Origin: Amycolatopsis sp. 2-15
Lineage (GTDB): Bacteria > Actinomycetota > Actinomycetes > Mycobacteriales > Pseudonocardiaceae
Direction of reading: 5' to 3'
NCBI RefSeq assembly: GCF_030285625.1
Contig: NZ_CP127294.1
Span: 2,490,001 to 2,554,000 of the forward strand
Length of the DNA: 64,000 nt
This document shows, piece after piece, positions 6,338-63,592 of this stretch. The notes beneath the pieces were generated by a model. That model was not told the origin of the DNA and did not search any database. It saw only the letters and a program-made list of their open reading frames with translations. A program made the translations under genes and the position numbers. Numbering within the stretch: position 1 is the stretch's first letter; each line of letters begins with the position of its first letter.

Positions 6338-8497
6338 GTGCGGAAAGTCCTGCTCACCGGATTGGTGACGGTGTTGGCGATGAGCATGGTCCCGGCCGCT
6401 TCGGCGACCGAGGGTGACGCGCCAGGCGGGCCGGGTGCTCATCCGAGCTGGCTGCCGGCGGACAAAACGGGCTTCGGCACGGCCCGCGATCGCGCCAGCG
6501 ACGTGTGGTTCACGCTGCAGGGCGGGCGCATGTCGGAGGTGTACTACCCCGATCTGTCGACCCCGAGCGTGCGGTCGCTGGACCTCGTCGTGAGCGACGG
6601 GCGGACCTTCGCGACGCTCGCGTCGGCCGCGAAGTCGCAGCAGGTCCGGCGAGTCGACGACCTCACGTACGAGCAGACCAGCACCGACGATCAGCGCCGG
6701 TGGCGGCTGAGTCGGACGTATGTGACGGATCCCGCGCGGTCCACGGTGCTGGTGGACGTCGAGTTCACGTCGCTGGCCGGGCGGCCACTCTCGCTCTACG
6801 CCGTGGCGGACCCGGATCTGACCAACGACGGCAGTGACGATTCGGCATCCGCTTCCGGTGCGGTGGCGTCGGCTTCCGACGGTGCCACGGCGGCCGCGTT
6901 GACGGCCGCCCCGGCGTTTTCGCGGACGTCCGTGGGATACGCGGGTGTTTCGGATGGCGCGACCCAGTTGCTGGCCTCGAAAAAGCTGGTTTCGTATTCA
7001 CACGCCGCCAGCGGAAACGTCGTCCTCACCGGACAGACTTCGGCTGACGGCGTGCGTTCCCGGCACGTGACTTTGTCCCTGGGAATGGGTTCTTCCGGCT
7101 CCGAAGCGGTCAATAAAGCCCAGGCTTCCGCCCGCCGCGGTTTCCACGCGATTTCCGCCGACTACTCCCGCGGCTGGCGCGATTACCTTTCCACCGTCCG
7201 CACCGCGCCGTCTTCATTGACGAGCCCGGCGTCACGCGATTTGTACCGAGCCTCCGTGCTGACGCTCGCCGCGAGCGAGGACAAACACCACCCGGGCGCC
7301 TTCATCGCGTCGCCGAGCATGCCGTGGCGCTTCGGCAACAACGACCCCGAATACTCGCCCTCGGGCACTTATCACCTGGTGTGGCCCCGCGACCTCTACC
7401 AAATCGCCACAGGCCTGCTCGCTGCCGGCGACCGGTCCGCGGCCGACCGTTCCGTCGACTACCTCTTCGGCACCCAGCAACTGCCCGACGGGCACCTGCC
7501 GCAGAACAGCAACGTCGACGGAAAGCCCTATTGGACCTCCATCCAGCTCGACGAGACCGCGCTCCCGATCGTGCTCGCCCAGCAGCTCGGCCGTACCGAC
7601 CTGTGGCCGAACGTCCGCCGCGCCGCCGAGTTCCTGCTGTCCTACCGCTCCGCCGACGGCAAGGCCTCCCCGTACACGCAACAGGAACGTTGGGAAGAAC
7701 AGGACGGCTACTCGCCCTCGACCATCGCCGCGGTGATCGCGGGCCTCGTCTGCGCCGCCGACCTGGCCACCCACTCGGGCGCGAACGCCGACGCGGCCCG
7801 CTACCTCGCGACGGCCGACCGCTTCAAAGCCGGGCTGGCGCACCAGACCGTGACGACCAACGGCCCTCTGTCGAAGCAGCCCTACTTCGTCCGCCTCACG
7901 AAGAACGGCGACGCGAACTCGGGCCTCACCTACAACCTCGGCAACTCGTCGCTCACCGTCGACCAGCGCTCCGTCACCGACGCCGGCTTCCTCGAGCTCG
8001 TCCGCCTCGGCATCTACCCGGCCGACGACCCCGTGATCCGCAACAGCATCAAGGTCACCGACGCCGACATCTCCTTCACCACGCCGGCCGGCCAGTTCTG
8101 GCACCGCTACACAATGGACGGTTACGGCGAACAACCCGACGGCTCACCGTGGGACTACACGTTCCCGTCCGAGAGTCGCGCCACTTACGGCCGCCTCTGG
8201 CCGCTGCTCGCCGGCGAACGCGGCGAGTACGACCTGGCCGCCGGCAACCGTCTCTCGGCCCAACGCCGCCTGACCGACCTGTCCCACGCCGCCGGCTCGT
8301 CGGACACCATGCCGGAGCAGGTCTGGGACGAGAACCCGCCTTCGGGCTCACCCGGCCACACGCCCGGCACCCCGACGGCCTCGGCCACACCGCTCGCCTG
8401 GACCCACGCCCAGTACATCCGCCTGGCCTGGTCCGTCGCGCGGAACCGGCCGGTCGAGCAGCCTTCCGTCGTGCGCGAGCACTTCCTGGGGTACTGA
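6338..8497 (+). CDS. Secreted glycoside hydrolase family 15 (glucoamylase/glucodextranase-like)
   Basis: 719 residues from GTG 6338, chosen because it gives a clean signal peptide (MRKVLLTGLVTVLAMSMVPAASA) behind a GGGGGTG ribosome-binding site. The N-terminal half is a beta-rich glucodextranase-type domain (GTARDRASDVWFTLQGGRMSEVYYPD). The C-terminal (alpha/alpha)6 barrel carries HLVWPRDLYQIATG, QERWEEQDGYSPST with the general-acid glutamate (about residue 450) and MPEQVWDENPPSG with the general base (about residue 660). It would release glucose from the non-reducing ends of alpha-glucans or dextrins outside the cell. It stands alone, divergent from the thiC leader and ending at a strong terminator. 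Confidence 0.92.
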   Translation: MRKVLLTGLVTVLAMSMVPAASATEGDAPGGPGAHPSWLPADKTGFGTARDRASDVWFTLQGGRMSEVYYPDLSTPSVRSLDLVVSDGRTFATLASAAKSQQVRRVDDLTYEQTSTDDQRRWRLSRTYVTDPARSTVLVDVEFTSLAGRPLSLYAVADPDLTNDGSDDSASASGAVASASDGATAAALTAAPAFSRTSVGYAGVSDGATQLLASKKLVSYSHAASGNVVLTGQTSADGVRSRHVTLSLGMGSSGSEAVNKAQASARRGFHAISADYSRGWRDYLSTVRTAPSSLTSPASRDLYRASVLTLAASEDKHHPGAFIASPSMPWRFGNNDPEYSPSGTYHLVWPRDLYQIATGLLAAGDRSAADRSVDYLFGTQQLPDGHLPQNSNVDGKPYWTSIQLDETALPIVLAQQLGRTDLWPNVRRAAEFLLSYRSADGKASPYTQQERWEEQDGYSPSTIAAVIAGLVCAADLATHSGANADAARYLATADRFKAGLAHQTVTTNGPLSKQPYFVRLTKNGDANSGLTYNLGNSSLTVDQRSVTDAGFLELVRLGIYPADDPVIRNSIKVTDADISFTTPAGQFWHRYTMDGYGEQPDGSPWDYTFPSESRATYGRLWPLLAGERGEYDLAAGNRLSAQRRLTDLSHAAGSSDTMPEQVWDENPPSGSPGHTPGTPTASATPLAWTHAQYIRLAWSVARNRPVEQPSVVREHFLGY

Positions 8498-38209: not shown

Positions 38210-38848
38210 TTGACCACACCACCGTTCGGCGTGCCGTCGGCCGCCAACCCGTTCCAGCCGCCGGGTACCGGCTCGTTCCAGCCGCCCCGGCCGGGCGCGC
38301 CCCGGCGTCTCTCGAGCACCGCGAAGGTGCTGGTCGCAGCAGGAATCGTGGCGGCGCTCGGCGTGGGCGTGCTCGCCGCGTTCGGCGTGGCCGCGATCGC
38401 CCGCTCGTCGGGCACGCCGGTGGCGGGCAGCTGCCTGTACCTGTCCGACGAGAGTGTCGGCACGCAGAGTTACCACGGCGTGAGCTGCTCCGAGCAGCGC
38501 GCCACCTACCGCGTCGACGACGTCGAAGACGGCACCTCGAGCTGCCGCGGCGGGGACTACGTGCGTTTCCAGCTCTTCCGGAGCACCAGCAGTTCGAGCC
38601 GCACCAGCGCGCCACGCGAGACGCTGTGCCTGGCGCTCAACGTCTCGTCCGGCGACTGCCTGCGCGACGTCGACGACGAGGCCGCGATCAGCAAGGTCAC
38701 CTGCAGCGACCCCGACGCCGAGGCCCGGGCGGTCGTCCACCAGGGCAGCGGCGACGAGAGCTCGTGCAGTGTTGCCGACACCGCCCTCGTCTACGCCGGC
38801 CCGCCCGAGCGCACGGTCTGCCTGCAGCCCGCGGGCGAGAACATCTAG
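38210..38848 (+). CDS. Membrane-anchored hypothetical protein
   Basis: 212 residues from TTG 38210, chosen because GGAGGGG sits four bases upstream; an ATG at 38180 has no such site. A proline-rich N-terminus (PPFGVPSAANPFQPPG) leads to one transmembrane helix (VLVAAGIVAALGVGVLAAFGVAAIA) and an extracellular domain with several cysteines (SCLYLS, SCSEQRATYRV, SSCRGGD, DCLRDVDD, VTCSD, SSCSVAD) that probably form disulfides. I recognise no family. Its 3' end overlaps the convergent lipoprotein gene by four bases. Confidence 0.7.
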   Translation: MTTPPFGVPSAANPFQPPGTGSFQPPRPGAPRRLSSTAKVLVAAGIVAALGVGVLAAFGVAAIARSSGTPVAGSCLYLSDESVGTQSYHGVSCSEQRATYRVDDVEDGTSSCRGGDYVRFQLFRSTSSSSRTSAPRETLCLALNVSSGDCLRDVDDEAAISKVTCSDPDAEARAVVHQGSGDESSCSVADTALVYAGPPERTVCLQPAGENI

Positions 38849-39810
38849 GGCTGGTTCTCGTCCGGCAGCATCGCCTGCACGTCGAGCCGGCTCGGGAGCA
38901 GGCCCGACGTGTGCATGAGGTCGGCCACGCGCTGCAGCCGGATGCCCGACAGCGTGGTCGGGTAGGTGCCCAGCGAGATCAGCGCCGCCGTGGTCGGGTC
39001 GATGTCGGAGAACGTCGGCAGCGCGTCGCGGACGATCGCCGGGTCGGCGGCGGTTTGCTGCGCCTGCACGAGCACGCGCCGGAAGACGGCCAGCGTGCGC
39101 GGGTTGTCGCGTGCGAACGCGCCGGTTGTCGCGTAGCCCGAAGCCGGGAAGTCGAGGGTGGCGCCACTGGACCCGTCGGCGAGGATCTGCGCGCCGAGCT
39201 CCTTTTCCGCCCGCGTGATGTACGGCTCCACCATCAGCGCCGCGTCGGCGTCGCCGGCCTGCAACGCGTCGGGCATCCGGGCGAACGGCTTGGCCACGAA
39301 GTGGATCTTCGCCGCGTCGACGCCGGCGGTCGCGAGCACGGAACGAGCGGTCAGCGCGCCGATGTCGTCGAGGTCGTCCACGGCGATCTTCGGCGACTTC
39401 TTCGCCGTGGGCTCGGTGTAGTCGGAGTTCGGCAGCGTCACGAGGGCGATCGTGTTGTTGCCCGACGTGTAGGCCTCGCCTTGCAGCTGCAACGCGGTGC
39501 CGGCATTGGCCGCGCGGAAGAGGGACACGTCGCTGGCGAACGTCACGTCCAGCTGTCCCGAGCCGAGTCTCGCCAGGCCGTCCTCGGTGCCGAGGTCCAC
39601 GAGCGTCACGTTCAGCCCGGCCTCGCGGAACTTCCCGGCGGCCGCCGCGATGCGCAGCGGGGCGGTGTCGATCGGCCCGCCGACGCCCACGCGCAGAGTG
39701 GTCCGCTCCACTGGCGCCGGCGCCGCTGCGTCACCGGAATCGAACAGCGAGCAGCCGCTGATGGCCAGCAAGACCGCCACCAGCGGCAACACCAGTGCAC
39801 GCACGTTCAT
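38845..39810 (-). CDS. Orphan ABC-transporter substrate-binding lipoprotein (SsuA/TauA/NMT1 type)
   Basis: 321 residues. A lipoprotein signal (LVLPLVAVLLAISGC, cysteine about 20) precedes the NMT1/SsuA fold (TTLRVGVGGPIDTAPLRIAAAAGKF, SGQLDVTFASDVSLF, DALQAGDADAALMVEPYI). It is related to the transporter component at 54452-55483. No permease or ATPase is adjacent, so it is an orphan, perhaps feeding another transporter. It is divergent from the orphan NIT kinase. Confidence 0.85.
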   Translation of the reverse strand: MNVRALVLPLVAVLLAISGCSLFDSGDAAAPAPVERTTLRVGVGGPIDTAPLRIAAAAGKFREAGLNVTLVDLGTEDGLARLGSGQLDVTFASDVSLFRAANAGTALQLQGEAYTSGNNTIALVTLPNSDYTEPTAKKSPKIAVDDLDDIGALTARSVLATAGVDAAKIHFVAKPFARMPDALQAGDADAALMVEPYITRAEKELGAQILADGSSGATLDFPASGYATTGAFARDNPRTLAVFRRVLVQAQQTAADPAIVRDALPTFSDIDPTTAALISLGTYPTTLSGIRLQRVADLMHTSGLLPSRLDVQAMLPDENQP

Positions 39811-40007: not shown

Positions 40008-42773
40008 GTGAGCCGTCGCGACCAGCGTCCCCGAACGGGCGACGCGACGGATCCCGCTGCCGCCAGACAGGTCGGGGGCCGCTGGCGCCTCCGCAACTGG
40101 CACCTGCGGACCAAACTCTTCGCTGTCCTGCTGATCCCCGCGCTCGCCGTGATCGGGCTCGTGGGCCTGCGCGTGAGCACGGACCTGCGCGACGCCCAGC
40201 AGCTCGCCGAGTTCGCCGCTCGCGGCCGCGTGGACAGCACCGTGGCCGAGGTCCTGCACCAGCTGCAGCGCGAGCGCGACGTCACGGTGCGGTTCGTCGC
40301 CGGCAACCGCCAGGGCGCCACCACCGACCTCACGGGCCAGCGCACGCGCGTGGACCAGGCCATCGGCACGTTCGAGAAGACGCTCGCCGCCAGCTTGCCG
40401 CGCCTCGACGCCGTGGCCGCCAGCAGCCTGCAGCAGAGCGACGACCGGCTGCGGGTGCTCAGCGGCCTGCGTTACTCCGCCGAGCACTCCGCGTTCCCCG
40501 CCGACGCCGTGCTCCGCTCGTACAGCGAGCTGATCTCCGGCCTGCTCGACATCAGCGACATGGCCGCCGCCGACGTGTCCGACCCCGATCTCGCCCGGCT
40601 CCGCCTCGCCGGCAACGCCCTCGCGCGGATCAAGGACCAGATGTCGGTCAAGCGCGCGATCATGTCCGAGGCGCTCGCCGAGGGCAGCCTCAACCGCGAC
40701 CGCACGCGCGCGCTGCTGGGTGCGGAGGCCGAGCTCAACGCCGCGCGCAACGATTACCGCACCTTCGCGACGCCCGACCAGCTGCGGATGTACGACGACA
40801 CGGTGATCGGCCTCGTCGTCGACATCGGCAACGACATGGTCGAGTCGGCGCTGACCCGCGCGGAGAACGGCCAGTCGCTGCAAGGTCTGGACCCCGACCA
40901 ATGGGACACCGCGGCCACCTACACGGTGAACCTCGCCCACCAGGTGCAGGAAGCGCTGCTGGTGCAGCTGCAGCAGCAGACCGATTCGCTCGCCGCGCGC
41001 GCCCGCACGTCGACGATCTGGGACGGCGGCATCGTGCTCGCCGTGCTGCTCGTGGCCGGCATCCTGTCCGTGGTCATCGCGCGTTCGCTGCTGCGGCCGC
41101 TGCGCGTGCTGCGGCGCACGGCGCTCGACGTGGCCGACCACCGGCTGCCCGAGGCCGTGCAACGGCTGCTGACCGATCCCGATCCGGCGCCGGAGAACCT
41201 GCGGCACCGCGCGGCCGTCGCGCCCGTGCCGGTGTTCACGCGCGAAGAGGTGGGCCAGGTCGCGCGCGCGTTCGACGCGGTCCACGGCGAGGCCGTGCGG
41301 CTCGCGGCCGAACAGGCGATGCTGCGCGAGAACGTCAACTCGATGTTCGTCAACCTCTCGCAGCGAAGCCAAGATCTCGTCGAACGACAGCTGTCCGTGC
41401 TCGACCGCATGGAAGCCGGCGAGCAGGACCCGGACACGCTCGCGGGCCTGTTCGAGCTCGATCACCTCGCCACGCGCATGCGCCGCAACAGCGAGAACCT
41501 GCTGGTGCTCTCGGGCACCGACCTCGTGCGCGAGGACAGCGGACCGGTGGTGGCCGACGAGATCGTGGGCGCCGCGCTGTCCGAAGTGGAGGATTACCAG
41601 CGCATCGAGCTCGGCTCCGCGCCGACGCTCGCGGTGCGCGGCGAGGCCGTGAACGACCTCGTGCACGTGGTGTCCGAGCTGCTCGAGAACGCCACGCGTT
41701 ACTCGTCGGAACGCGCAGGCGTCACCGTCGAAAGCGCCGAAACCCCCGACGGCGGCTGGCGCATCGAGATCACCGACCGCGGCGCGGGCATGCCGCAGGC
41801 CGAGATCGACCGCACCAACGCGCGCCTGGCCAACCCACCGGACGTCGACGTCGAGGTCTCGCGCCGGATGGGTCTCTACGTGGTCGCGACACTCGCCCAG
41901 CGCCACCACATCGACGTCTCGCTGCGCCTGGCCGAAGGCACCGGCATCACCGCGACGGTGCTCGTGCCCACCGAACTGATCGTCGACGCGCCGCCGCTGC
42001 CCGAGCCGCCCGCGCCCGTCGCCGCCGAACCCGAGCCGGCGCCGGAGCTGTTGCCGCCATTGGCCCCGCTGGTCGCCGCGTCGGCCGGACCCGCTGCCGA
42101 GGAAGAAAATCCCGAGCCGCCGGCGGAAGCGCCGATCGTTCCGGTGCTCGAACCGGGCCCGCCGCGGCGCGCGCCGGTGGTGGAGAGCACGCCGCCGTGG
42201 CCGGCGCAGGAGGGCCGTTCGCACCTCGATCTGGACGCGCCGACGGAACGCATGCCCGCCTACCGGGACGTGCTGTCGCGGTGGTTCGACGCGGCCACGC
42301 CGCCACCCGAGGGACGGGCGCCGGCGCCGCCGGAACCGTTGCCCGTGGCGGAACCCGTGGCAGAACCGGAACCGCGGCCGGACCGCACGCCGGAATCTGT
42401 ACCGGAACCCCCAGCTCCCGAGCCGCCCGCGCGGCACGCCCGCACCGTGCTGGAACCGGACTACGTTGCACCCGCGTTTCCGGCCGAGCAGTTCCCCACG
42501 ACCGATCCGGACGAGAGCCCGGCCCCGCCGGAGTGGCCGACCTCGGACGAGCTCGAGCAGGAGGACGGCGCCGAGGACACGTGGCCGTTCCTGCGCGTGT
42601 CCGAGATCGAAAACGCAGGCGAAGACGGCATGGAGGCCAGCCCCGGGCAGGTGCCCGAGCAGCGGCCGATACTCTCGCTTTCCCCCGAAGCGGTGCGCGA
42701 GCGGATGACGAGCCTTCAAGGCGGGTTCAGGCGTGGCCGCCACGCCCGGGGGGACGAGAACCCCACGACCTGA
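40008..42773 (+). CDS. Orphan nitrate/nitrite-sensing (NIT) domain histidine kinase, CvnA type
   Basis: 921 residues. GTG 40008 follows AAAAGGAAG. A membrane helix (LFAVLLIPALAVIGLVGLRV, about 44-64) is followed by an extracellular NIT domain (about 65-330), a second helix (GGIVLAVLLVAGILSVVIARSLL, about 342-363), HAMP and coiled-coil, a candidate phospho-histidine in FELDHLATRMRRN, and an HATPase with ELLENATRYSS (N box, about 557), DRGAGMP (G1, about 590) and MGLYVVATLA (G2, about 620). A long Pro/Glu-rich tail follows. It is the CvnA-type kinase of conservons but has no roadblock, DUF742 or GTPase neighbour here. Confidence 0.92.
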   Translation: MSRRDQRPRTGDATDPAAARQVGGRWRLRNWHLRTKLFAVLLIPALAVIGLVGLRVSTDLRDAQQLAEFAARGRVDSTVAEVLHQLQRERDVTVRFVAGNRQGATTDLTGQRTRVDQAIGTFEKTLAASLPRLDAVAASSLQQSDDRLRVLSGLRYSAEHSAFPADAVLRSYSELISGLLDISDMAAADVSDPDLARLRLAGNALARIKDQMSVKRAIMSEALAEGSLNRDRTRALLGAEAELNAARNDYRTFATPDQLRMYDDTVIGLVVDIGNDMVESALTRAENGQSLQGLDPDQWDTAATYTVNLAHQVQEALLVQLQQQTDSLAARARTSTIWDGGIVLAVLLVAGILSVVIARSLLRPLRVLRRTALDVADHRLPEAVQRLLTDPDPAPENLRHRAAVAPVPVFTREEVGQVARAFDAVHGEAVRLAAEQAMLRENVNSMFVNLSQRSQDLVERQLSVLDRMEAGEQDPDTLAGLFELDHLATRMRRNSENLLVLSGTDLVREDSGPVVADEIVGAALSEVEDYQRIELGSAPTLAVRGEAVNDLVHVVSELLENATRYSSERAGVTVESAETPDGGWRIEITDRGAGMPQAEIDRTNARLANPPDVDVEVSRRMGLYVVATLAQRHHIDVSLRLAEGTGITATVLVPTELIVDAPPLPEPPAPVAAEPEPAPELLPPLAPLVAASAGPAAEEENPEPPAEAPIVPVLEPGPPRRAPVVESTPPWPAQEGRSHLDLDAPTERMPAYRDVLSRWFDAATPPPEGRAPAPPEPLPVAEPVAEPEPRPDRTPESVPEPPAPEPPARHARTVLEPDYVAPAFPAEQFPTTDPDESPAPPEWPTSDELEQEDGAEDTWPFLRVSEIENAGEDGMEASPGQVPEQRPILSLSPEAVRERMTSLQGGFRRGRHARGDENPTT

Positions 42774-52858: not shown

Positions 52859-53686
52859 CTAGGGACGGCCGGGCTGCCACTTGAGCACCCGGCGCTCGAC
52901 GGCGAGCAGGGCCGCGTTGAACCCGTAACCCAGGATGCCCAGCAGCACGATCCACGCCCACATCTGGTCGAAATCGTACGCGCGCTGGGCGGCGATCAGG
53001 GCGTAGCCGATGCCGTTGAGCGAGCCGACGAGCTCCGAGATCGCCATGAGGATCAGCGAGATCGACAGCGAAAGCCGCAGACCCGCGAAGATCTTCGGCA
53101 TCGCGGCCGGCAGCACGACCGTGGTGATCCAGTAGAACCGCGGCGTGCGGAACGCCCGCGCGGTCTCCGCCTTCACCTTGTCGACCGAACGCACGCCGTC
53201 CACGGTGTTGAGCACGATCGGCCACACGGAACCGAAGATGATCGTGGCGATCTGCATGCCCGGTCCGATGTGGAACAACACGATGAACACCGGCACCAGC
53301 GCGGGCGGCGGGATCGCGCGGAAGAACGCGAACAGCGGCCCCACGTAGTCCATGCCGGTCTTCGAACGCCCGAGCGCTGTTCCCAGTGCGACACCCAGCA
53401 CCACCGAGAGCAGCCAGCCGCCGAGCACGCGCGCGAGGCTCGGCAGGACGTGGTCGAACACCGCCTGGCCGAGGAAAACGTGCGAAGCCGGGCCGGAGAA
53501 CCACAGCTTCACCGCCGCCGCGACGATCTTGGTGGGCGGCGGGAAGAACACGCTTTCCGTGAACTGCGTGATGACCTGCCAGATCACCACGAGCACCACG
53601 AACAGCAGCCACTTGCGCGCGAACCCGCTCAGGCCGCGGGCCACGCGGCTGCGCGCGGCGCTTACCGGCTTGCCGACGACGGTCAC
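52859..53686 (-). CDS. ABC transporter permease (SsuC/TauC type), second permease
   Basis: 275 residues from GTG 53686, which overlaps the first permease stop by four bases. It has about six transmembrane helices and the EAA loop ETARAFRTPRFYWITTVVLPAAMPKIFAGLR. It forms half of the membrane channel of the importer; the partner permease is encoded immediately upstream. Confidence 0.92.
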   Translation of the reverse strand: MTVVGKPVSAARSRVARGLSGFARKWLLFVVLVVIWQVITQFTESVFFPPPTKIVAAAVKLWFSGPASHVFLGQAVFDHVLPSLARVLGGWLLSVVLGVALGTALGRSKTGMDYVGPLFAFFRAIPPPALVPVFIVLFHIGPGMQIATIIFGSVWPIVLNTVDGVRSVDKVKAETARAFRTPRFYWITTVVLPAAMPKIFAGLRLSLSISLILMAISELVGSLNGIGYALIAAQRAYDFDQMWAWIVLLGILGYGFNAALLAVERRVLKWQPGRP

Positions 53687-54450
53687 GCGACGTCCCCTTC
53701 GTCGTTGCTGCTCCAGCGGAACAGGCGCTTGCCCAGCCGTTCGAGCCCTTCGTTGGCGAGGAATCCCAGCACCCCGGCCACGACGGTGCCCGCGAGCACC
53801 AGGTCCATCCGCCCGGAGCCGGACGACGCCTCGAGCACGAACTGCCCGATACCCAGCTTCGCCCCGGCGAGGAACTCCGTGCTGATCACAAGGATCAGCG
53901 AGATCGCCGCCGACATCCGGATGCCGGTGAACACAAACGGCGCCGCGTGCGGCAGCGCCACCGAGGTCAGCAGCCGCGATTTCGGCGTGCCGTAGGAGCG
54001 CGCCGTCTCGATGAGCACCGGGTCGATCTCGGCCATCGCGTAGATGGTGTTGAACAGGATCGGCCACACGGCGGCGTAGACCGCGAGCAGGATCTTCGAC
54101 TCGGGTCCGCCGCCGACCACGATCAGGATCAGCGGGATCCACGCCACGGAAGGGATGGGCCGCAGGAACTCGACGATCGCCTTGGTCGCGTCGCGCAGCC
54201 AGCGCACGCTGCCGAGCAACAGTCCGGCCGGCACCGCGACGGCGATGGACACGGCCATCGCGATCAGCCACGCGAGCACGGACGCGATCACGTCACGCAC
54301 GAACTCCGTGTCGCCGAACAGCTCGCCGATGCGCGCGAACACGACCGTGGGCGGCGGCACGTCGTTCTGGTCGATCAGGCCGACCCGCACGACGACCTCC
54401 CAGATCAGGAGGAAGCCGAGCAGGCCGACCAGGTTCCGAACGATCCGCAC
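53683..54450 (-). CDS. ABC transporter permease (SsuC/TauC type), first permease
   Basis: 255 residues with about six membrane helices and an EAA loop (ETARSYGTPKSRLLTSVALPHAAPFVFTGIR). Having two different permeases instead of one repeated is typical of a subset of sulfonate/nitrate-type importers. It starts one base from the substrate-binding gene stop. Confidence 0.92.
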   Translation of the reverse strand: MRIVRNLVGLLGFLLIWEVVVRVGLIDQNDVPPPTVVFARIGELFGDTEFVRDVIASVLAWLIAMAVSIAVAVPAGLLLGSVRWLRDATKAIVEFLRPIPSVAWIPLILIVVGGGPESKILLAVYAAVWPILFNTIYAMAEIDPVLIETARSYGTPKSRLLTSVALPHAAPFVFTGIRMSAAISLILVISTEFLAGAKLGIGQFVLEASSGSGRMDLVLAGTVVAGVLGFLANEGLERLGKRLFRWSSNDEGDVA

Positions 54451-54451
54451 G

Positions 54452-55483
54452 TCAGGAGGCGCTCGGCTGCGCCACGATCATCTGCGCGACGTCGATCTTG
54501 GCCGGGATCGACCCGAACTGCTGCAGCAGGTCCGGCACGCGCTGCAGACGACGGGCGTCCAGAGTGGACTGGAAGGTGAGCAGCGCGGTGAGCGAGGCGG
54601 TGGCCTCGTCGACCTTCGAAAACTGCACCATCAGCGGCTCGATCTTCGAGCGGTCCGCCGACTCCTTCGTGGCGCGCAGCATCGCGCGCTGGAACGCGGC
54701 CACGGTCTTCGGGCTCGCCGAAGTGAACTTGCCCAGCGCGCCGTAGCCCGCGGTCGGGAAGTCCTGGGTGGCACCGGTCGCGGTGTCGATGATCGGCACC
54801 GTGCCGTTGGTCTTCGCCGAGCCCGTGATGAACGGCTCGGTGAGGAAGCCCGCGTCCACGTCGCCGCGCTTCACGGCCGCGCCGATGCTCGGGAACGGCA
54901 GGGAAACCCACTGCACCTTGGAGAAGTCCACGCCGTTGTCGCGCATCACGGACTTGGTCAGGGTGTCGCAAATGGTGTTCTGCGCGGTGATGGCGATCTT
55001 CTTGCCCGCCAGGTCGCGCACGCTCTTCACCGAACCGTTGGGCATGGCCACGATCTCGGTGCTCTTCGGGCCGGCCGAGGAGGCGTCGGACACGAACTTG
55101 ATGTCCGCGTTGCCCTTGCTCTTCGCGATGAAGAACGGCGTGTAGCTCGCGTAGGCGATGTCGACCTCTCCGGACAGGAGCTTCGTCACGGACGCGTCAC
55201 CGCTGGCGGCGTCGACGGACTCGACCTCGAGGCCTTCGTCCTTGAAGTAGCCGTTCTGCACCGCGAGGTGGAACGGCGCGACGTCGATCGTCGGCATGAT
55301 CGAGACCTTGATCTTCGTCTTCTCGAGCCCCGACGCGCCGTTGGTGCTGCCCGAGTCGTCCGAACCTCCGAGCAGGCCGCAGCCACTCGCGGTCAGTGCG
55401 ACGCCGCTCGCCATGGCGAGGGAGAGGAAGCCACGGCGCCCGAGTCTTGCCTGGCTGCTCCCGGCTGTTTCAAACAAGGCCAC
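54452..55483 (-). CDS. ABC transporter substrate-binding lipoprotein (SsuA/NMT1 type)
   Basis: 343 residues. A twin-arginine-like start (RLGRRGFLSLAM) leads to a lipobox (VALTASGC, cysteine about 36). The NMT1/SsuA fold reads KIKVSIMPTIDVAPFHLAVQNGYFKDEGLEVESV, then LLSGEVDIAYASYTPFF. It is related to the orphan lipoprotein at 38845-39810. GTG 55483 directly abuts an AAGGA sequence; TTG 55477 would give better spacing. Sulfonate, taurine, nitrate or a pyrimidine precursor is possible; no substrate is certain. Confidence 0.9.
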   Translation of the reverse strand: MALFETAGSSQARLGRRGFLSLAMASGVALTASGCGLLGGSDDSGSTNGASGLEKTKIKVSIMPTIDVAPFHLAVQNGYFKDEGLEVESVDAASGDASVTKLLSGEVDIAYASYTPFFIAKSKGNADIKFVSDASSAGPKSTEIVAMPNGSVKSVRDLAGKKIAITAQNTICDTLTKSVMRDNGVDFSKVQWVSLPFPSIGAAVKRGDVDAGFLTEPFITGSAKTNGTVPIIDTATGATQDFPTAGYGALGKFTSASPKTVAAFQRAMLRATKESADRSKIEPLMVQFSKVDEATASLTALLTFQSTLDARRLQRVPDLLQQFGSIPAKIDVAQMIVAQPSAS

Positions 55484-56044: not shown

Positions 56045-59000
56045 GTGCGGGTAGTGGTCGCGGGCACGGCAGGCTTCAACTCACAGGGTCCCTCGGGCCC
56101 GGACGAAGATGGTGGTGCGGCGGTGCCGAACGAAGACACCGCGGGGGTGGGAGGGGCCCCTGCGCGCGAAAGTGGGGTGAATCCCGCACGACGGGGTTCG
56201 GTCTTCGCGCTGAACAACTGGCGGCTTCGCTCGAAGCTCGCTCTCATCCTGATCATTCCGACGCTCACCGCGCTGGTGCTCGGTGCCCTGCGGGTGGCGG
56301 ACGACGCGCAGCAGGCCGTGCAGCTCGGCCACACCGCGGACCAGGTCGCGTTCGCGGGCAAGGTGACCACGGTCATCCACGACCTGCAGGGTGAGCGCAG
56401 CCTCGCCGTCGCGCGGATCTCCTCCGGCGACGCGCTGCGCCAGACCGGGCTCGACGCGCAGATCGCGAAGGTCGACCACGACGTCGAGGACCTGCGCAAC
56501 TCGCTGGTCAACCTGAATCCCGATGACCAGGCCACCGCTGATCGGTACGCCCGCGGAATCCAGCGCCTCGACGCGCTGCGCCCGCTCCGCGCGGCCGTCG
56601 GCTCGTCGTCCTACTCCGACGTCGCGGTGCTCGACACCTACTCCTCCATCCTCAACTCGCTCATCCAGCTGGGCCGCGAGGTGACCACCGCGGTCACCGA
56701 CCGGGACCTGCTGCGGCTGGGCAACAGCACGCAGGCCATCAGTGAGGCCAAGGAGTTCACGCTCCGCGGCGACACGGCCCTGCAGATCGCGGCCTTCCGC
56801 AACGGCTTCCCCGGCGACCTGCTCGACGAGACGCGCGCCGCCGAGGCCAGTGGCGACGCGTCGATCGCGGCGTTCCTCGCGAACGCCACCGACGACCAGG
56901 TGCAGCTGTACTCCGACACCGTCTCGGGCCCGGAGGTCGACGACCGGCGCCGCATCCAGACGCAGGCGTTCTCCTTCGCGCAGCAAGGCGAAGCGCTCAA
57001 CATCGACCCGACGCAGCTCGGGCAGGACAGCACCGTCGCCTCCGACAAGATGCGCGCGGTCGAGACGAACCTGCTCACGCAGTTGCGGACGCAAGCCGAC
57101 GACCTGGCCAGCTCGGCCGTGCGCTCGGCGTGGGTCGGCGGGGTGATCGTGCTCGCGGCGCTCATCGCGGCGCTGATCCTCATGCTCGTGATCGCCCGCC
57201 TGATGCTGCGGCCGCTGCGCGTGCTGCGGACCACGGCACTCGATGTGGCCTACACGAGGCTGCCGGAGACGGTTCAGTCCATTCTGGACGATCCGGACCC
57301 GGTCAACGCGTCCAAGAAGGCTGTCGACCCGGTGCCGGTCACCTCACGCGACGAGATCGGTGAAGTGGCGCGCTCGTTCGACGTGGTCCACGGCCAGGCC
57401 GTGAAGATGGCCGCGGAACAGGCCCTGCTGCGCGAGAACGTCAACGGCATCTTCGTGAACCTCTCGCGGCGGTCGCAGCGGCTGGTGGAACGCCAGCTCG
57501 GCGTGATCGACCGGCTCGAGGCCGACGAGCAGGACCCGGACCACTTGGCGAGCCTGTTCGAGCTCGACCACCTCGCCACCCGGTTGCGGCGCAACGGTGA
57601 GTCGCTGCTGGTGCTCTCGGCGCCGGCCTCGCGAAGTCCGTGCCCAAGCCGGTGCCGGCGGCCGACGTGATCGGCGCCGCGGTCTCGGAGATCGAGCAGT
57701 ACGCCCGCATCGAGGTCGGCATCGTCCCCGAGGTCGCCGTGCAGGGCCTCGCGATCCACGACCTCGTGCACGTGCTCGCCGAGCTGCTGGACAACGCGAC
57801 CTACTTCTCCGAGCCGGAGACGAAGGTCACAGTCCGCGCCGTCGTCACACGTAAGAAGGCCCTGGCGATCCAGATCACCGACCACGGTGTCGGCATGACG
57901 GAGGACCGCCTCGCCGAGGTCAACCAGCGCCTGGCCGACCCGCCGGACCTCGACGTCTCGGTGACGCGGCGAATGGGTCTGTACGTGGTCGCGCGCCTGG
58001 CCCAGCGCCACGGCATCGAGGTGCGGCTGCGCGAGAACGAGGACATCGAGGGCGGCGTGATCGCCCGCGTGGTGGTGCCGGCCGAGCTGCTCACGCAGCT
58101 GCGCGTCAACAACCCCGCGCCGCGGCAAACGCCGCCGCCGCTGAACCGCAACGAGGTCTCGCACCCGAGCCTGCCGCCGGTCAACCGGCAGCAGTTCGAC
58201 CAGTTCGACTCGCAGTTCGACTCGACGCCACCGCCTCCTTCGGCACCGCCCGCGGCTCCGCCCGCACCGGCCGTGCCGGCGCAGTCCAACGGTGGCCTCG
58301 TGCCGCTCGACCAGCCGATCAGCCTCGACGACCTCGTGGCCGGAAACCGCGCGGCCGGGCCGTTCCTGAGCCCGGAGGCGTCGCTGCCGGAAGCACCGGC
58401 GTGGCCGACGGCCGAAGATCTCGCCCCGCTCACCCAGCAGTCCAACGGGGATGGTGCGAGCCTGTCGGAGACCCAGTTCCCGCCGCTGGTGCTCCCGAAG
58501 CGCGAACCGAAATACGTCGCGCCGGAGGAGCCGCAGCGCCAGGATCCGGCCGTGGACGACGGTGCGTCGGCCCTCGAGGACGACGTGCCCACGCGGCGCC
58601 TGCCGATCTACCAGTCGGTGCTTTCGCGGTGGTTCAGCGAGGGCAGCGAGGACGGCGAACCCGGTGCGGCCGACGAGCACGGCGCTCCGGCCGCCGACGC
58701 GGCCCCGGCCGAGACGGCTCCGGCGGAACCGAAAGCCGCCGAGGCACTCGGGGCCCCGGCGACGAACGGGGCCCCGGCCGCCGCCGAGGAGCCGTCCGGG
58801 ATCGACAGCGCCTTTGACAGCCGTGAGGAGGAGCCGATCGAAGCGACGCCTCTCTACCCCGGTTCCGACGACGGCTGGAGCAGCGCGTCGGACGAGGGCT
58901 GGCAGGCCGCGCAGTCGTTGCTGGAGAAGAAGGCCGAGGAGATCACGCCGGCGGGCCTGCCCAAGCGGGTGCCCAACGCGTACCTCGTGCCGGGCTCGAT

Positions 59001-59250
59001 CGGCGGTGACTCGGCACCGGATGACCAGCACAATTCGTTCACCGACGCGACTTCCGGTCTGCCCGGAACGGGTGCTATCACCCGCTCGGCTGCCGCGGCC
59101 CGCAACAGGATGGCAAGCTTCCAGCGTGGGTACACCTCCGGACGGCACAGTTTGAAGGAACGGCCGGCCGACGAAGCCCGGCTCGACGACGAAGGCGTAC
59201 GCGTCACCGGGTCCGGGTATGTGAGCGACAGCAGTGAGGAGCGACAGTGA
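56045..59250 (+). pseudogene. NIT-domain histidine kinase CvnA, broken by a single-base frameshift
   Basis: Two overlapping frames (56045-57670 and 57640-59250) together make one NIT histidine kinase of about 1070 residues. The first has a membrane helix (LALILIIPTLTALVLGALRV), NIT domain, second helix (GVIVLAALIAALILMLVIARLML), HAMP and FELDHLATRLRRN. The second has the HATPase (ELLDNATYFS, DHGVGMTE, MGLYVVARLAQ) and a long Pro/Glu-rich tail. Where the paralogue at 40008 has CTCTCGGGCACC, this gene has CTCTCGGCGCC, so one G is missing near 57619. The GTG at 56045 is uncertain. A sequencing error is possible; if real, the sensor is split. Confidence 0.9.
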
Positions 59251-59723
59251 CACGGGCGGGTGCAGTGCAGCCGGGTGGCGGCTCGGCGCAGCCGAACGGC
59301 AGGGCCGGCGGCGGCGTGGCGGGCAGCTTCGCGTGGCTGATCACGGACTTCGTCCACCGGGTTCCGGGCGCGGCCCACGCGGTGGTCGTTTCGGCCGACG
59401 GGCTTCTGCTCGCGGCTTCGCGAGGGCTGCCGAAGGACCGGGCCGATCAGCTGGCGGCGGTCGCCTCCGGGCTGACCAGCCTGGCGCGCGGCGCGGCGAA
59501 GGTGTTCGAAGGCGGCCCGGTCGCGCAGACCGTGGTCGAGATGGCCAACGGTTTCCTCTTCCTGATGTCGGTCTCCGACGGCTCGTGCCTCGCGGTGCTG
59601 GGCGCGCCGGACAGCGACATCGGTCTCGTCGTGTACGAGATGACGTTGCTGGTCGAACGAGTCGGCCAGCAGCTGACGCCGGAAATGCGCGCGCAACTGC
59701 AGGGCGCTGCGATCCGCCGCTAG
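59247..59723 (+). CDS. Roadblock/LC7 domain protein (CvnB type)
   Basis: 158 residues, starting GTG 59247 and overlapping the kinase stop by four bases. The roadblock fold is complete: [55 protein letters not shown] and [51 protein letters not shown]. Family members regulate small GTPases. It is the second gene of the conservon, whose GTPase is at 60496. Confidence 0.95.
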
Positions 59724-59750
59724 GCGGATCGGGAACTTCAGGAGCAGACC

Positions 59751-60515
59751 GTGGACGACGGGCGCTTGAGGGGCGATGGCCGGCTCGGTGACGATTTCAC
59801 CGGCGGTTGGGCCGAGGCCGGCGAAGGCCGGGAGGACTGGAAGTCCTTCCGGGACCGAGTGGACCGCGAGTGGCGCGCCCGGCGCGCCACGGGATCCGAC
59901 GCGGATCCGGTGCGGGAGCCGCCGAACTGGCTGACGGACTCCAACGCCGGGCAGCAACCGATCACCGGCGAGTACCGCGACCGCCTCCTTGGCGGTCCGG
60001 GTGCCGAGCTGTTCGGCGGCGCGAGCGGGCCGCTGTATGACTCCGCGGAGTTCGCGGCGTTCAGCGCGCAACGCGACGGCTCGCCGGGACCGTCGTCCAA
60101 CGAGCTCGCCGAAGCCCTGCCGATGCAGGCCGCGGGCGAGTACGTGGACGAACCGCCGGTGGCCGAGGTGGAGACGTCCGGGCTCGTGCGCCCGTACTTC
60201 CGCACGCGCGGCCGGACGAGGCCGACCTACGACCTCGCGATCGAGGCCCTGGTCTCGACCAGCGAGCAGGGGCGCGTGCTGGACCGCGTGCGCGTGCCCG
60301 AGCACCGGTCCATCTGCGATCTGTGCATCGACACCCGCTCGGTCGCGGAGGTGGCCGCGCTGCTGCGCCTGCCGCTGGGCGTCGTGCGGGTGCTCATTGG
60401 TGACGTGGCGGGTCTCGGACTGGTGCTGGTGCACACCACCAGCAGTACTTCCTCGGGCGACCGCCCCAGTATCGAGTTCATGGAAAGGGTGCTCAGTGGG
60501 CTTCGGAGAATTTGA
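59751..60515 (+). CDS. DUF742 protein (CvnC type)
   Basis: 254 residues from GTG 59751. The N-terminal half is disordered and acidic; the conserved C-terminal domain is LVRPYFRTRGRTRPTYDLAIEALVSTSEQGR, then RSICDLCIDTRSVAEVAALLRLPLGVVRVLIGDVAGLGLVLVH. It is the third conservon gene, and the last 20 bases overlap the GTPase start. Confidence 0.92.
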   Translation: MDDGRLRGDGRLGDDFTGGWAEAGEGREDWKSFRDRVDREWRARRATGSDADPVREPPNWLTDSNAGQQPITGEYRDRLLGGPGAELFGGASGPLYDSAEFAAFSAQRDGSPGPSSNELAEALPMQAAGEYVDEPPVAEVETSGLVRPYFRTRGRTRPTYDLAIEALVSTSEQGRVLDRVRVPEHRSICDLCIDTRSVAEVAALLRLPLGVVRVLIGDVAGLGLVLVHTTSSTSSGDRPSIEFMERVLSGLRRI

Positions 60516-61104
60516 CTCCGACGCGAACACACCGCAGGTGACGGGTCCGACCTCGTCGGCCAAGATCGTGGTCGCGGGTGGGTTCGGTTCGGGCAAGACG
60601 ACGCTGGTCGGGGCGATCTCGGAGATCGACCCGCTGACCACCGAGGCCATGATGACCGAGGCGAGTGTCGGCCACGACGACACTTCGGCCACGCCGAACA
60701 AGACGACCACCACGGTCGCCATGGACTTCGGCCGGATCTCGCTCGACTCGGACCTCGTGCTGTACGTGTTCGGCACGCCGGGCCAGCACCGGTTCTGGTT
60801 CATGTGGGACGACCTCGCCGTCGGTGCGATCGGGGCCGTGGTGCTGGTGGACACGCGGCGGCTCGCCGACGCGTTCCCGTCCATCGACTTCTTCGAGAAC
60901 CGGAAACTGCCGTACGTGGTCGCGATCAACTGCTTCGACCGGTTGCTGCACCACCAGATCGAAGACGTGCGGCACGCGCTGACGATCTCCCCGTCGGTGC
61001 CGATCATGGCCTGCGACGCGCGCGAGCGTGACTCGGCCAAGCAGGTGCTGATCTCGGTCGTACAGCACGCCATCGCTCACGACACGGCACTGAGGGCAGG
61101 CTAG
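60496..61104 (+). CDS. Small GTPase of the conservon (CvnD type)
   Basis: 202 residues from GTG 60496. It has a P-loop VAGGFGSGKTTLVGA (about 25-39), a switch block VGHDDTSATPNKTTTTVAMDFGRIS and a G3-like LYVFGTPGQHRFWFMWDDL. The usual NKxD is INCFDR here, as in the family. It is an MglA-like switch that would interact with the roadblock protein. Confidence 0.95.
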   Translation: MGFGEFDSDANTPQVTGPTSSAKIVVAGGFGSGKTTLVGAISEIDPLTTEAMMTEASVGHDDTSATPNKTTTTVAMDFGRISLDSDLVLYVFGTPGQHRFWFMWDDLAVGAIGAVVLVDTRRLADAFPSIDFFENRKLPYVVAINCFDRLLHHQIEDVRHALTISPSVPIMACDARERDSAKQVLISVVQHAIAHDTALRAG

Positions 61105-61498
61105 AAACCCGAGTACCCGGAGCGGGGTGCGGCCGTTGGAGTGAACTCCACGTGCTTCACCCGCTTCGGGGAGTGGTGCCTCCGACCGGAGTAGGGCGCC
61201 CCGCCCGCTCTTCGGTACGGTCGGGGCCGGCAAGGCCCGAACGGGCAGCCGAATGGCCGGTGACCTGCACAGACACCCCGCTGCGCACAGTTGCCGGCGC
61301 CACCACCGAGTGACCCACGGATGCGTGGTCCCGGAGGGGCTCGCGCGGTGTGCGTCCGGATGCGTACGCACAGTGCCCGGGTGCTCGCCCGACGCGGACT
61401 CGACAGTGTCGGGCGGGTGAATACGCTGGAACGGCGTCTTCACGCCCGCCCGGCGATCATGGCGGTGTTCGGCGGTGTTCGACCAGTTTGGAGGGACA
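61105..61498. other. Intergenic region between the conservon and the second roadblock gene
   Basis: A 394-base gap with no supported gene. TCGACA (61400-61405) and TACGCT (61422-61427), with a 16-base spacer, could be a promoter for the next pair. Confidence 0.4.
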
Positions 61499-61924
61499 GT
61501 GACCGTTTCCGGCCAGGAAGGCCAGGGCACGTTCAGCTGGCTGATCACGGATTTCGTGCGCCGGGTGCCCGGCGCCGCGCACGCCGTGCTGGTGTCGGCC
61601 GACGGTCTCCTGCTCGCGCCGTCGGAAGGTCTGCCGCAGGAGCGCGCCGAACAGCTCTCGGCCGTCGCGTCGGGCCTCGTGAGCCTCACTCAGGGCGCCG
61701 CACGCTGCTTCGAGGCCGGTGGTGTGAACCAGACGGTGGTCGAGATGGAGCTCGGGTACCTGTTCCTCATGTCGGTGTCCGACGGGTCGTCGCTGGCCGT
61801 GCTGGCCGCCCCCACGTGCGACATCGGCACGGTCGCGTACGAGATGACGCTGCTCGTGGAGCGCGTCGGCCAGCAGATCACGCCCGAACTGCGCGCCCAG
61901 CTCCAGGGCGGGGTGCGTGGTTAG
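61499..61924 (+). CDS. Second roadblock/LC7 domain protein
   Basis: 141 residues from GTG 61499, with GGAGGG at 61490-61495, four bases upstream. It is similar to the first roadblock protein: [56 protein letters not shown] and [54 protein letters not shown]. It is followed three bases on by a DUF742 gene, but no kinase or GTPase partner is found here. Confidence 0.92.
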
Positions 61925-61927
61925 TAC

Positions 61928-63592
61928 ATGAGGATCTCCGGCTTCGGCGACCAGGACACGGGCGCCTGGGACGCGCTGCACAAGGGCACCGATCGGGAAG
62001 GCGTGGACTCGCCGAGCCATTTCGAGCTGAGCACGCTGAAGACGATGCTGCCGCACCGGCGGCCGGCTGCTTCCGCTGTGCCGCCGCCTGCTCCCGTTCG
62101 CCCGGTTGCTCCTGCTCCGGCCGCGCCTGCGTCTTCCGAGTACTACGACGACGACGGGTACGAGTGGGTCGAGGACGGGGGGTCGGGGTACTGGGAGGAG
62201 ACCGGGACTTCCTCGGGGTACTACGACGCCGAGTCGTACCTGACGCACGAGGATCGTCAGGTGCCGGAGGACTCGGCTTACTACCAGGCTCCGGAGCGGC
62301 GGCATCTGGCCGCGGTGGAGGAGCCTGCGCGTGCGGCGGGGTACGAGCAGGATGCTGCTTACGCGTCGGGGTACCAGCGGGTTCCGGAGTCCCACGGTTC
62401 CGGTTATGGCCATGAGCAGGCGCCGGTTTCTTCGGACGCGGCCTACGCTTCGGGCTACCAGCAGGCGCCTGCCGCTGACGCGTACCGCCACCAGGCACCG
62501 GCTTCCGATGCCGCTTACGCGTCGGGCTACCACCAGGCTCCCGCTTCGGATGCCTACGCTTTGGGCTACCGCCAGACTCCCGCTTCGGATGCCTACGCTT
62601 TGGGCTACCGCCAGGCTCCCGCTTCGGATGCCTACGCTTTGGGCTACCGCCAGACTCCCGCTTCGGATGCCTACGCGTCGGGGTACCAGCACGCTGAGCC
62701 GTACGCCTCCGGCCACCACCACCAGCTGCCGGCCGCCGATGCGGGTTATCCCGCGGACTACAACCGTTCTGCCGCACCGGAGTCGTACCCCGCCGAGAAC
62801 CACCGGGCCCCTGCCGGCGAGTACTCCTCGGGCTACTTCGAAGAGCCCGCCTACGAGCCTTCCGAGTCGACCGGCCGCCACGCCGTCGTCGCGCCTTCGC
62901 ACTCGGACCAGCGTGGGCGCCGCGCCGCCGTCGACACGGCCGACCGCGACCGGCCCTACCGCCCCACCCCGGCCGACGTCGGCTACCTCCCGCCGGCCGA
63001 CGCCCAGCACCGCCTTGCCGAACCCCCGGAGCGCACCACCGGCCGCCGCCGTGCTCCCGAACCCGTTGCGCCGCAGCAGGATTCGTACCCGGCTGGGCCG
63101 TATTCATCCGAGCCTGCCGGGTACCCGTCCCGGGCCGAGCCGTACGCGACTGAACCCGTTGCGGCACACCAGGATCAGTATCCGGCCGAGCCGTATTCAC
63201 CCGAGTCCGAGCAGGCCTGGTCCCGCGAAGACCGGGCCCCAGCGGCGAAACCGGCGAAATCCCGCGTCCGCCCCTACGCCCGCACTCGCGGCCGCACGCG
63301 CTCCGACCACAACCTCGCGCTGGAAGCCCTCGTCTCCACCAGCGACGACGGCCGCCGCTACCGGGGCGTGCGCTCGATCGAGCACCGCCGCATCTGCGAT
63401 CTCTGCCTGGACACCCGCTCGGTCGCCGAGATCGCCGCCCACCTCCACCTGCCGCTCGGCGTGGTGAAGATCCTGGTCGGCGACATGGCCGACATCGGCC
63501 TGGTTCTCATCCACCAGACCGAAATCGTCCTGGGCGACCGTTCCTCGCGCGACTTCATGGAGCGCGTCCTGCAGGGCCTGCGCAACCTCTGA
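61928..63592 (+). CDS. DUF742 protein with long Tyr/Ala/Pro repeat region
   Basis: 554 residues, more than twice the size of the other copy. The N-terminus (MRISGFGDQDTGAWDALHKG) is followed by about 400 low-complexity residues. They include four tandem 13-residue units of the type ASDAYALGYRQTP, encoded by an almost exact 39-bp repeat (62534-62689), and many degenerate ASGYQ(Q)AP copies. The conserved DUF742 domain is at the end: VRPYARTRGRTRSDHNLALEALVSTSDDGRR to RSVAEIAAHLHLPLGVVKILVGDMADIGLVLIHQ. The repeat region is predicted to be extended and tyrosine-rich, with no known role. Confidence 0.9.
   Translation: MRISGFGDQDTGAWDALHKGTDREGVDSPSHFELSTLKTMLPHRRPAASAVPPPAPVRPVAPAPAAPASSEYYDDDGYEWVEDGGSGYWEETGTSSGYYDAESYLTHEDRQVPEDSAYYQAPERRHLAAVEEPARAAGYEQDAAYASGYQRVPESHGSGYGHEQAPVSSDAAYASGYQQAPAADAYRHQAPASDAAYASGYHQAPASDAYALGYRQTPASDAYALGYRQAPASDAYALGYRQTPASDAYASGYQHAEPYASGHHHQLPAADAGYPADYNRSAAPESYPAENHRAPAGEYSSGYFEEPAYEPSESTGRHAVVAPSHSDQRGRRAAVDTADRDRPYRPTPADVGYLPPADAQHRLAEPPERTTGRRRAPEPVAPQQDSYPAGPYSSEPAGYPSRAEPYATEPVAAHQDQYPAEPYSPESEQAWSREDRAPAAKPAKSRVRPYARTRGRTRSDHNLALEALVSTSDDGRRYRGVRSIEHRRICDLCLDTRSVAEIAAHLHLPLGVVKILVGDMADIGLVLIHQTEIVLGDRSSRDFMERVLQGLRNL
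62534..62689 (+). repeat. 39-bp coding tandem repeat, four units
   Basis: Unit starts at 62534, 62573, 62612 and 62651. The first three copies are almost identical (they differ at an A/G site); the fourth begins to diverge after its first two thirds. The repeat keeps the reading frame (13 codons). Confidence 0.9.

Follow-up and report, generated by a model that had tools for sequence, protein, structure and literature searches.

A one-base frame break in a NIT-type conservon kinase gene of an Amycolatopsis-like genome: most likely an assembly error

Introduction

When a gene is whole in its relatives and split by a single base in one genome, has the living strain lost the gene, or has the assembly lost the base? 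The question is raised here by a histidine kinase gene in a 64,000-base stretch of DNA (the window, G000:C1:2490001-2554000), which forms part of a single contig of 10,050,063 bases. The chromosome (10.05 Mb) is Amycolatopsis-like, and the best named relatives of the window are Amycolatopsis species. An initial annotation held that a one-base deletion had divided a 'nitrate-sensing' conservon kinase, either through a sequencing error or through a recent natural loss. The comparisons reported below bear out the deletion and retain these two as the right alternatives; the evidence leans towards error without settling the choice. The outcome is an ordinary one, with one usable side lead, a binding-protein gene that adjoins the kinase.

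The known systems most similar to this locus are the CvnA kinases of conservons, of the NIT type found for instance in conservons 1-6 of Streptomyces coelicolor, with which it shares NIT and HATPase_c regions and, below the cut-off, a HAMP-like one. It also shares the downstream Roadblock/LC7, DUF742 and small GTPase genes that the available text of two papers describes for conservons (PMC8510531, PMC13343842). Unlike the known CvnA kinases, the window copy is frame-broken, and a divergent SsuA/NMT1-like binding-protein gene lies next to it.

Architecture of the split gene

Judged by its domains and neighbours, the feature is a CvnA-type kinase of a conservon, NIT subtype, split in the window assembly (Table 1). 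The first open reading frame (541 aa) harbours a NIT domain (Pfam, E 1.2e-36) and a HAMP match of 22.5 bits, below the cut-off of 25, and the second (536 aa) harbours HATPase_c (Pfam, E 1.4e-13). In the window assembly the kinase is not a single uninterrupted frame, the reading frame being lost at about 57619, within CTCTCGGCGCC; this sequence had been read correctly, although its placement at 57611-57622 was about 3 bases off (57614-57624). As had also been described, the first frame then continues for 16 odd residues, APASRSPCPSRCRRPT, up to the stop at 57670, and the second resumes the kinase with PKPVPAADVIG right after a GTG, which gives an overlap of 31 bases between the frames (57640-57670). 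No clear ribosome-binding site was found by eye before 57640. Both halves align end to end with one intact protein (98% and 95%), and the split is therefore not a chance pair of open reading frames. The expected restored frame of about 1070 codons agrees with the intact kinase of the closest relative (G059), which has 1070 residues.

The downstream conservon genes are intact, as claimed: the Roadblock/LC7, DUF742 and small GTPase genes (59247-61104) are open and match Pfam families. After the second Roadblock/LC7 and DUF742 pair (61475-63592), no further kinase or GTPase was seen within the window. The intact paralogue, 13 to 16 kb from the split kinase, carries CTCTCGGGCACC at 41508-41519, the same point of the gene, in line with the initial annotation.

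Table 1. Window coordinates of the split kinase gene, its neighbours and its paralogue.
Feature	Position	Strand	Remarks
5' part of split CvnA-type kinase gene	56045..57670	+	NIT sensor, HAMP-like region and conserved-His helix; out of frame over the final 16 codons
3' part of split kinase gene	57640..59250	+	HATPase_c and variable tail; possible GTG start at 57640
Frame-break site	57614..57624	+	one base fewer than in 109 related loci compared
Conserved His codon (His 509 of intact relative)	57569..57571	+	upstream of the break
CvnB-like Roadblock/LC7 gene, intact	59247..59723	+	ORF, Pfam
CvnC-like DUF742 gene, intact	59751..60515	+	ORF, Pfam
CvnD-like small GTPase gene, intact	60496..61104	+	Pfam ATP_bind_1, GTP_EFTU
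Second Roadblock/LC7 gene	61475..61924	+	ORF, Pfam
Second DUF742 gene	61928..63592	+	ORF, Pfam
Intact paralogous NIT/HATPase_c kinase	40008..42773	+	Pfam
Divergent SsuA/NMT1-like substrate-binding protein gene	54452..55483	-	adjoins split kinase
ABC transporter permease gene	53683..54450	-	beside binding-protein gene
Second SsuA/NMT1-like binding protein gene	38845..39810	-	divergent from paralogue

The break site in related loci

The comparison with other strains that had been proposed gives a uniform answer, in that all 109 related loci carry one base more than the window at the site. These loci comprise 29 from the genus (80 genomes searched, best 30 including the window's own) and 80 named loci (best 80 of 233), and the organisms of the two sets may overlap. 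When 83 residues upstream of the break and 85 downstream were tested, 108 of the 109 gave a single stop-free frame. This was not so for the window copy (L009) and for one named locus (L111, Saccharomonospora sp. CUA-673), the latter being whole at the window's site and broken about 21 residues further on. A search with the whole protein, which covered 30 of the genus's 80 genomes (the window's own included), returned a one-frame match across the region in 28 of 29 relatives, the exception being G030; among these 28, six were covered in part and three had one TGA inside the match.

The intact G059 protein, used as a query, gave 2516 hits among 8000 scored candidates. When the window halves were compared with the query and its best six hits, the best identities were 99% (5' half) and 94% (3' half), and no clearly same-species intact record was present among these seven; since the protein database is clustered at 90%, such a record may be hidden.

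Conservation and selection around the break

The break falls in a strongly conserved block. In an alignment of 121 proteins, made up of the query and its 120 best hits out of 2516, no variation was seen over residues 500-536 of the intact relative; this block spans the break (525/526) and includes His 509. This residue is a candidate phospho-acceptor that may be equivalent to His 183 of CvnA8, which is required for autophosphorylation according to the available text of PMC13343842. As the break lies 16 residues after His 509, the 5' half retains the histidine and the 3' half the ATPase. In a structure model of a relative (P0002; mean pLDDT 54, below 50 over the kinase core and at the break) the equivalent place, after residue 499, lies between helices 472-491 and 513-524, which weakly suggests that the break is in a loop between two helices.

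The 5' half had a dN/dS of 0.048 against G059; the value for the 3' half, with its variable tail, was 0.20. Non-synonymous changes relative to G055 numbered 44 in the window and 48 in G059 for the 5' half, and 61 and 74 for the 3' half. By these distances there is no excess of amino-acid change on the window's branch in either half, and the word 'recent' in the initial annotation thus fits any loss that may have occurred. The selection data would fit an error and a very recent loss alike, and do not separate the two.

Frame breaks in 1.2 Mb of the genome

For the choice between error and loss, a strict survey set 1.2 Mb of the window genome against 1.2 Mb of G059, with 1,014,560 bases aligned. 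Identity to G059 is 97% around the site and mostly 92-96% in longer alignments. Over the aligned bases, 221 isolated frame-changing indels were found in coding and non-coding DNA together. In otherwise coding DNA, isolated frame-breaking indels numbered 13 in the window assembly versus 2 in G059; with equal odds for the two branches, at least 13 of 15 on one branch has a one-sided P of 0.0037 (121/32768). Omission of one gene that is broken in both genomes leaves 11 versus 1. By an eye count, 7 of the 13 alter a single-base run by one. Were nearly all 13 to prove errors, a rate of 13 per 1.01 Mb at 74% detection would imply some 150-200 of them in the whole assembly. Over the same aligned stretch, premature stops were found in neither genome. 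As a control, 100 random deletions and 100 random stop codons were placed within open reading frames 600 or more bases long in the central 400 kb; 74 of the deletions and 62 of the stops were recovered, and the unchanged sequence gave 13 and 0. Natural decay is expected to add stops as well, and indel-prone sequence to add frame breaks only; G059 also lacks stops.

The 13 breaks fall in 12 genes, which include, besides the kinase, asparagine-permease-like, TauD-like, R2-like oxidase, endonuclease V, metallophosphoesterase and histidine-kinase-like genes. Among the 11 genes scanned apart from the kinase, one of them without a family, no essential gene was recognised, a result of little weight. 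In our judgement those that can be named look dispensable, and this is a pattern that natural loss would give as well. The break in the R2-like ligand-binding oxidase gene lies beyond the end of the window, at G000:C1:2576857 (86857 when counted in window coordinates). Set against G059, a metallo-beta-lactamase-fold hydrolase gene shows an insertion of 2 bases and a deletion of 19 (window 24215 and 24679), and the G059 copy is broken at another point, so the gene seems to decay in both; it holds 2 of the 13 window breaks and 1 of the 2 in G059.

Several features of these counts bear on their reading. The strict survey drops indels that are not isolated, that lie less than 100 columns from an alignment end or that fall in poor alignment, and it omitted likely breaks at 2735046, 2727221, 2721495, 2673560 and 2366010. 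A looser first survey of 400 kb gave 17 versus 10 break calls with G059 and 54 versus 43 with G055, with gene-start misplacement and alignment noise mixed in. Since G055 also has many breaks (43, an unfiltered count that includes noise), G059 may be unusually clean. With G055 as outgroup, 51 of 89 short isolated indels in 400 kb could be placed, 30 on the window branch (18 deletions, 12 insertions) and 21 on that of G059 (13 and 8), a small excess that is not telling alone. A motif-specific error in the window assembly was also considered and gave no clear sign: GGGCGCC occurs 721 times versus 700 in G059, and the spectra of G and C runs are alike. Slight deficits relative to G059 are seen for two longer contexts, TCGGGCGCC with 55 versus 69 and TCTCGGGC with 93 versus 108.

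Broken copies in other genomes

Four broken copies of the kinase gene were found, each at a different position: near residue 525 in the window, near 507 in G030, at 547 in L111 and near 740 in L103 (Saccharomonospora halophila 8). Three of the four are thus clustered in a stretch of about 40 residues. Among the 80 named loci (best 80 of 233), a frame switch occurs in L111 and L103, at about 5998 and about 6650-6800 of the respective locus. Judging from its contig name, L111 would come from a SPAdes-type assembly of short reads at 232-fold depth, and this resemblance to a deep short-read draft makes a true break there plausible.

The G030 split has a different appearance. In this genome (L263, G030:C1:3662001-3682000) the same base is inserted in the same conserved-His stretch of both the orthologue and the neighbouring paralogue. 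Among 8 genomes, the 18-mer with the insertion occurs in G030 only, twice, and the plain 17-mer occurs in the 7 others and is absent from G030. A shorter inserted form, GAGCTTCGACC, is found 42 times genome-wide in G030 versus 19, 19 and 20 in three other relatives, about twice as often (reversed-pattern control: 10 versus 17, 8 and 13), and its plain form, GAGCTCGACC, 163 times versus 261, 217 and 206 (control: 207 versus 190, 162 and 149). This pattern of counts suggests that G030 suffers from a sequencing error that is partly systematic; public assemblies can therefore contain artefactual splits of this gene, which is no proof for the window.

Explanations for the split

An error in the assembled sequence is the likeliest explanation of the split (probability about 0.68): one base would have been lost from a short G run in the assembly, and the living strain would encode a CvnA-type kinase of about 1070 residues in one intact frame. 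The window break would then belong to the excess of frame breaks over G059. The balance tilts this way because isolated frame breaks are 13 versus 2 and premature stops are absent from both genomes; further backing can be drawn from the extra base in all 109 related loci, from the invariance of the broken block and from G030, where a likely systematic error splits the same gene. A comparable case is that of the GeneTack singletons, which likewise show an isolated frame transition confirmed by protein similarity, and for which the authors, in the available text, expect sequencing errors rather than genuine indels; that set was drawn from older genomes, unlike the window (PMC3711429). Against an error speak the lack of a clear motif or homopolymer-wide loss in the window assembly, the small size of the outgroup-placed excess and the breaks of L111 and L103 in the same gene; lineages may also differ in their true rate of pseudogenes. 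The lack of a motif bias and the L111 and L103 breaks lend some credit to a real recent frameshift, by which the strain would have lost the kinase and kept a truncated sensor half and an ATPase half, with the downstream genes intact. The dispensable look of the other broken genes and an intact paralogue nearby would suit such a loss. It is nevertheless rather unlikely, in view of the frame-break counts without stops, the strong conservation of the broken block and the want of relaxed constraint, though a very recent loss would show none either.

Readings in which the split serves a function fare much worse. The 3' half could be translated from the GTG at 57640, the two halves cooperating or the ATPase half acting alone, and this is compatible with the overlap of the frames, with the low-confidence P0002 model, which puts the break between the His helix and the next, and with a cvnA fragment (rarA) reported as active in S. 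griseus in the available text of PMC8510531. Such a split kinase is very improbable: none of the 109 relatives is broken at this position, no clear ribosome-binding site precedes the GTG, and sequence alone cannot tell it from decay. Equally far-fetched is a more specific form, a true split in the linker between the phospho-acceptor helix and the ATPase part that would yield either a CvnA sensor working in two pieces or an ATPase half that is free and constitutively active; were it true, the clustering of three of the four breaks would be more than coincidence. A programmed frameshift or phase variation, which a one-base shift between two long open frames might recall, was rejected because none of the 109 relatives shares the shift site, and its probability is close to nil; L111 breaks elsewhere, the G run here is of two bases with no repeat seen by eye, and the out-of-frame stretch is conserved within the relatives' intact frame.

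If the sequence is in error, as favoured here, the protein presumably works as other conservon kinases are thought to: a NIT sensor outside the cell would act through the HAMP region and the conserved-His helix on the ATPase domain, and the signal would pass to the Roadblock, DUF742 and GTPase proteins.

Sensing and the neighbouring binding-protein gene

The label 'nitrate-sensing' says too much. A NIT domain is present, and the kinase-family profile finds a match (E 1.5e-7) in the nitrate regulatory protein of PDB 4AKK, in its NIT region; that protein is not a kinase. Nitrate as ligand goes beyond the evidence: NIT-type CvnA proteins might sense other ligands, a point that the authors leave to future tests in the available text of PMC13343842. 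The unproven term is better worded as 'NIT-domain' kinase.

The side lead comes from the gene order. A divergent binding-protein gene lies at most 1.5 kb upstream of the kinase match in 65 of the 80 named loci (best 80 of 233) and is absent in 15, and a same-strand permease accompanies it in 64 of the 65. The window shows the same order, and beside the paralogous kinase (40008) there is likewise a binding-protein gene. Both binding proteins match the SsuA/NMT1 group, below the NCBIfam cut-offs. By word search, the term 'substrate-binding' is absent from the main texts, as available, of the conservon papers PMC8510531 and PMC13343842, and literature searches gave no title on a link between binding proteins and conservon kinases among the matches listed.

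Significance

If the break is an error, it has little significance in itself, and no frameshift in this assembly should be taken for a gene loss until the reads are consulted; the frame-break survey offers a yardstick for the other broken genes of this genome. A real break would mean that one conservon kinase has been knocked out naturally while the remainder of the conservon is intact, and the strain would be useful for the study of what the GTPase module does without its sensor. A binding-protein transporter gene stands beside the kinase in the majority of the named relatives compared, and this could hint at the ligand of NIT-type kinases.
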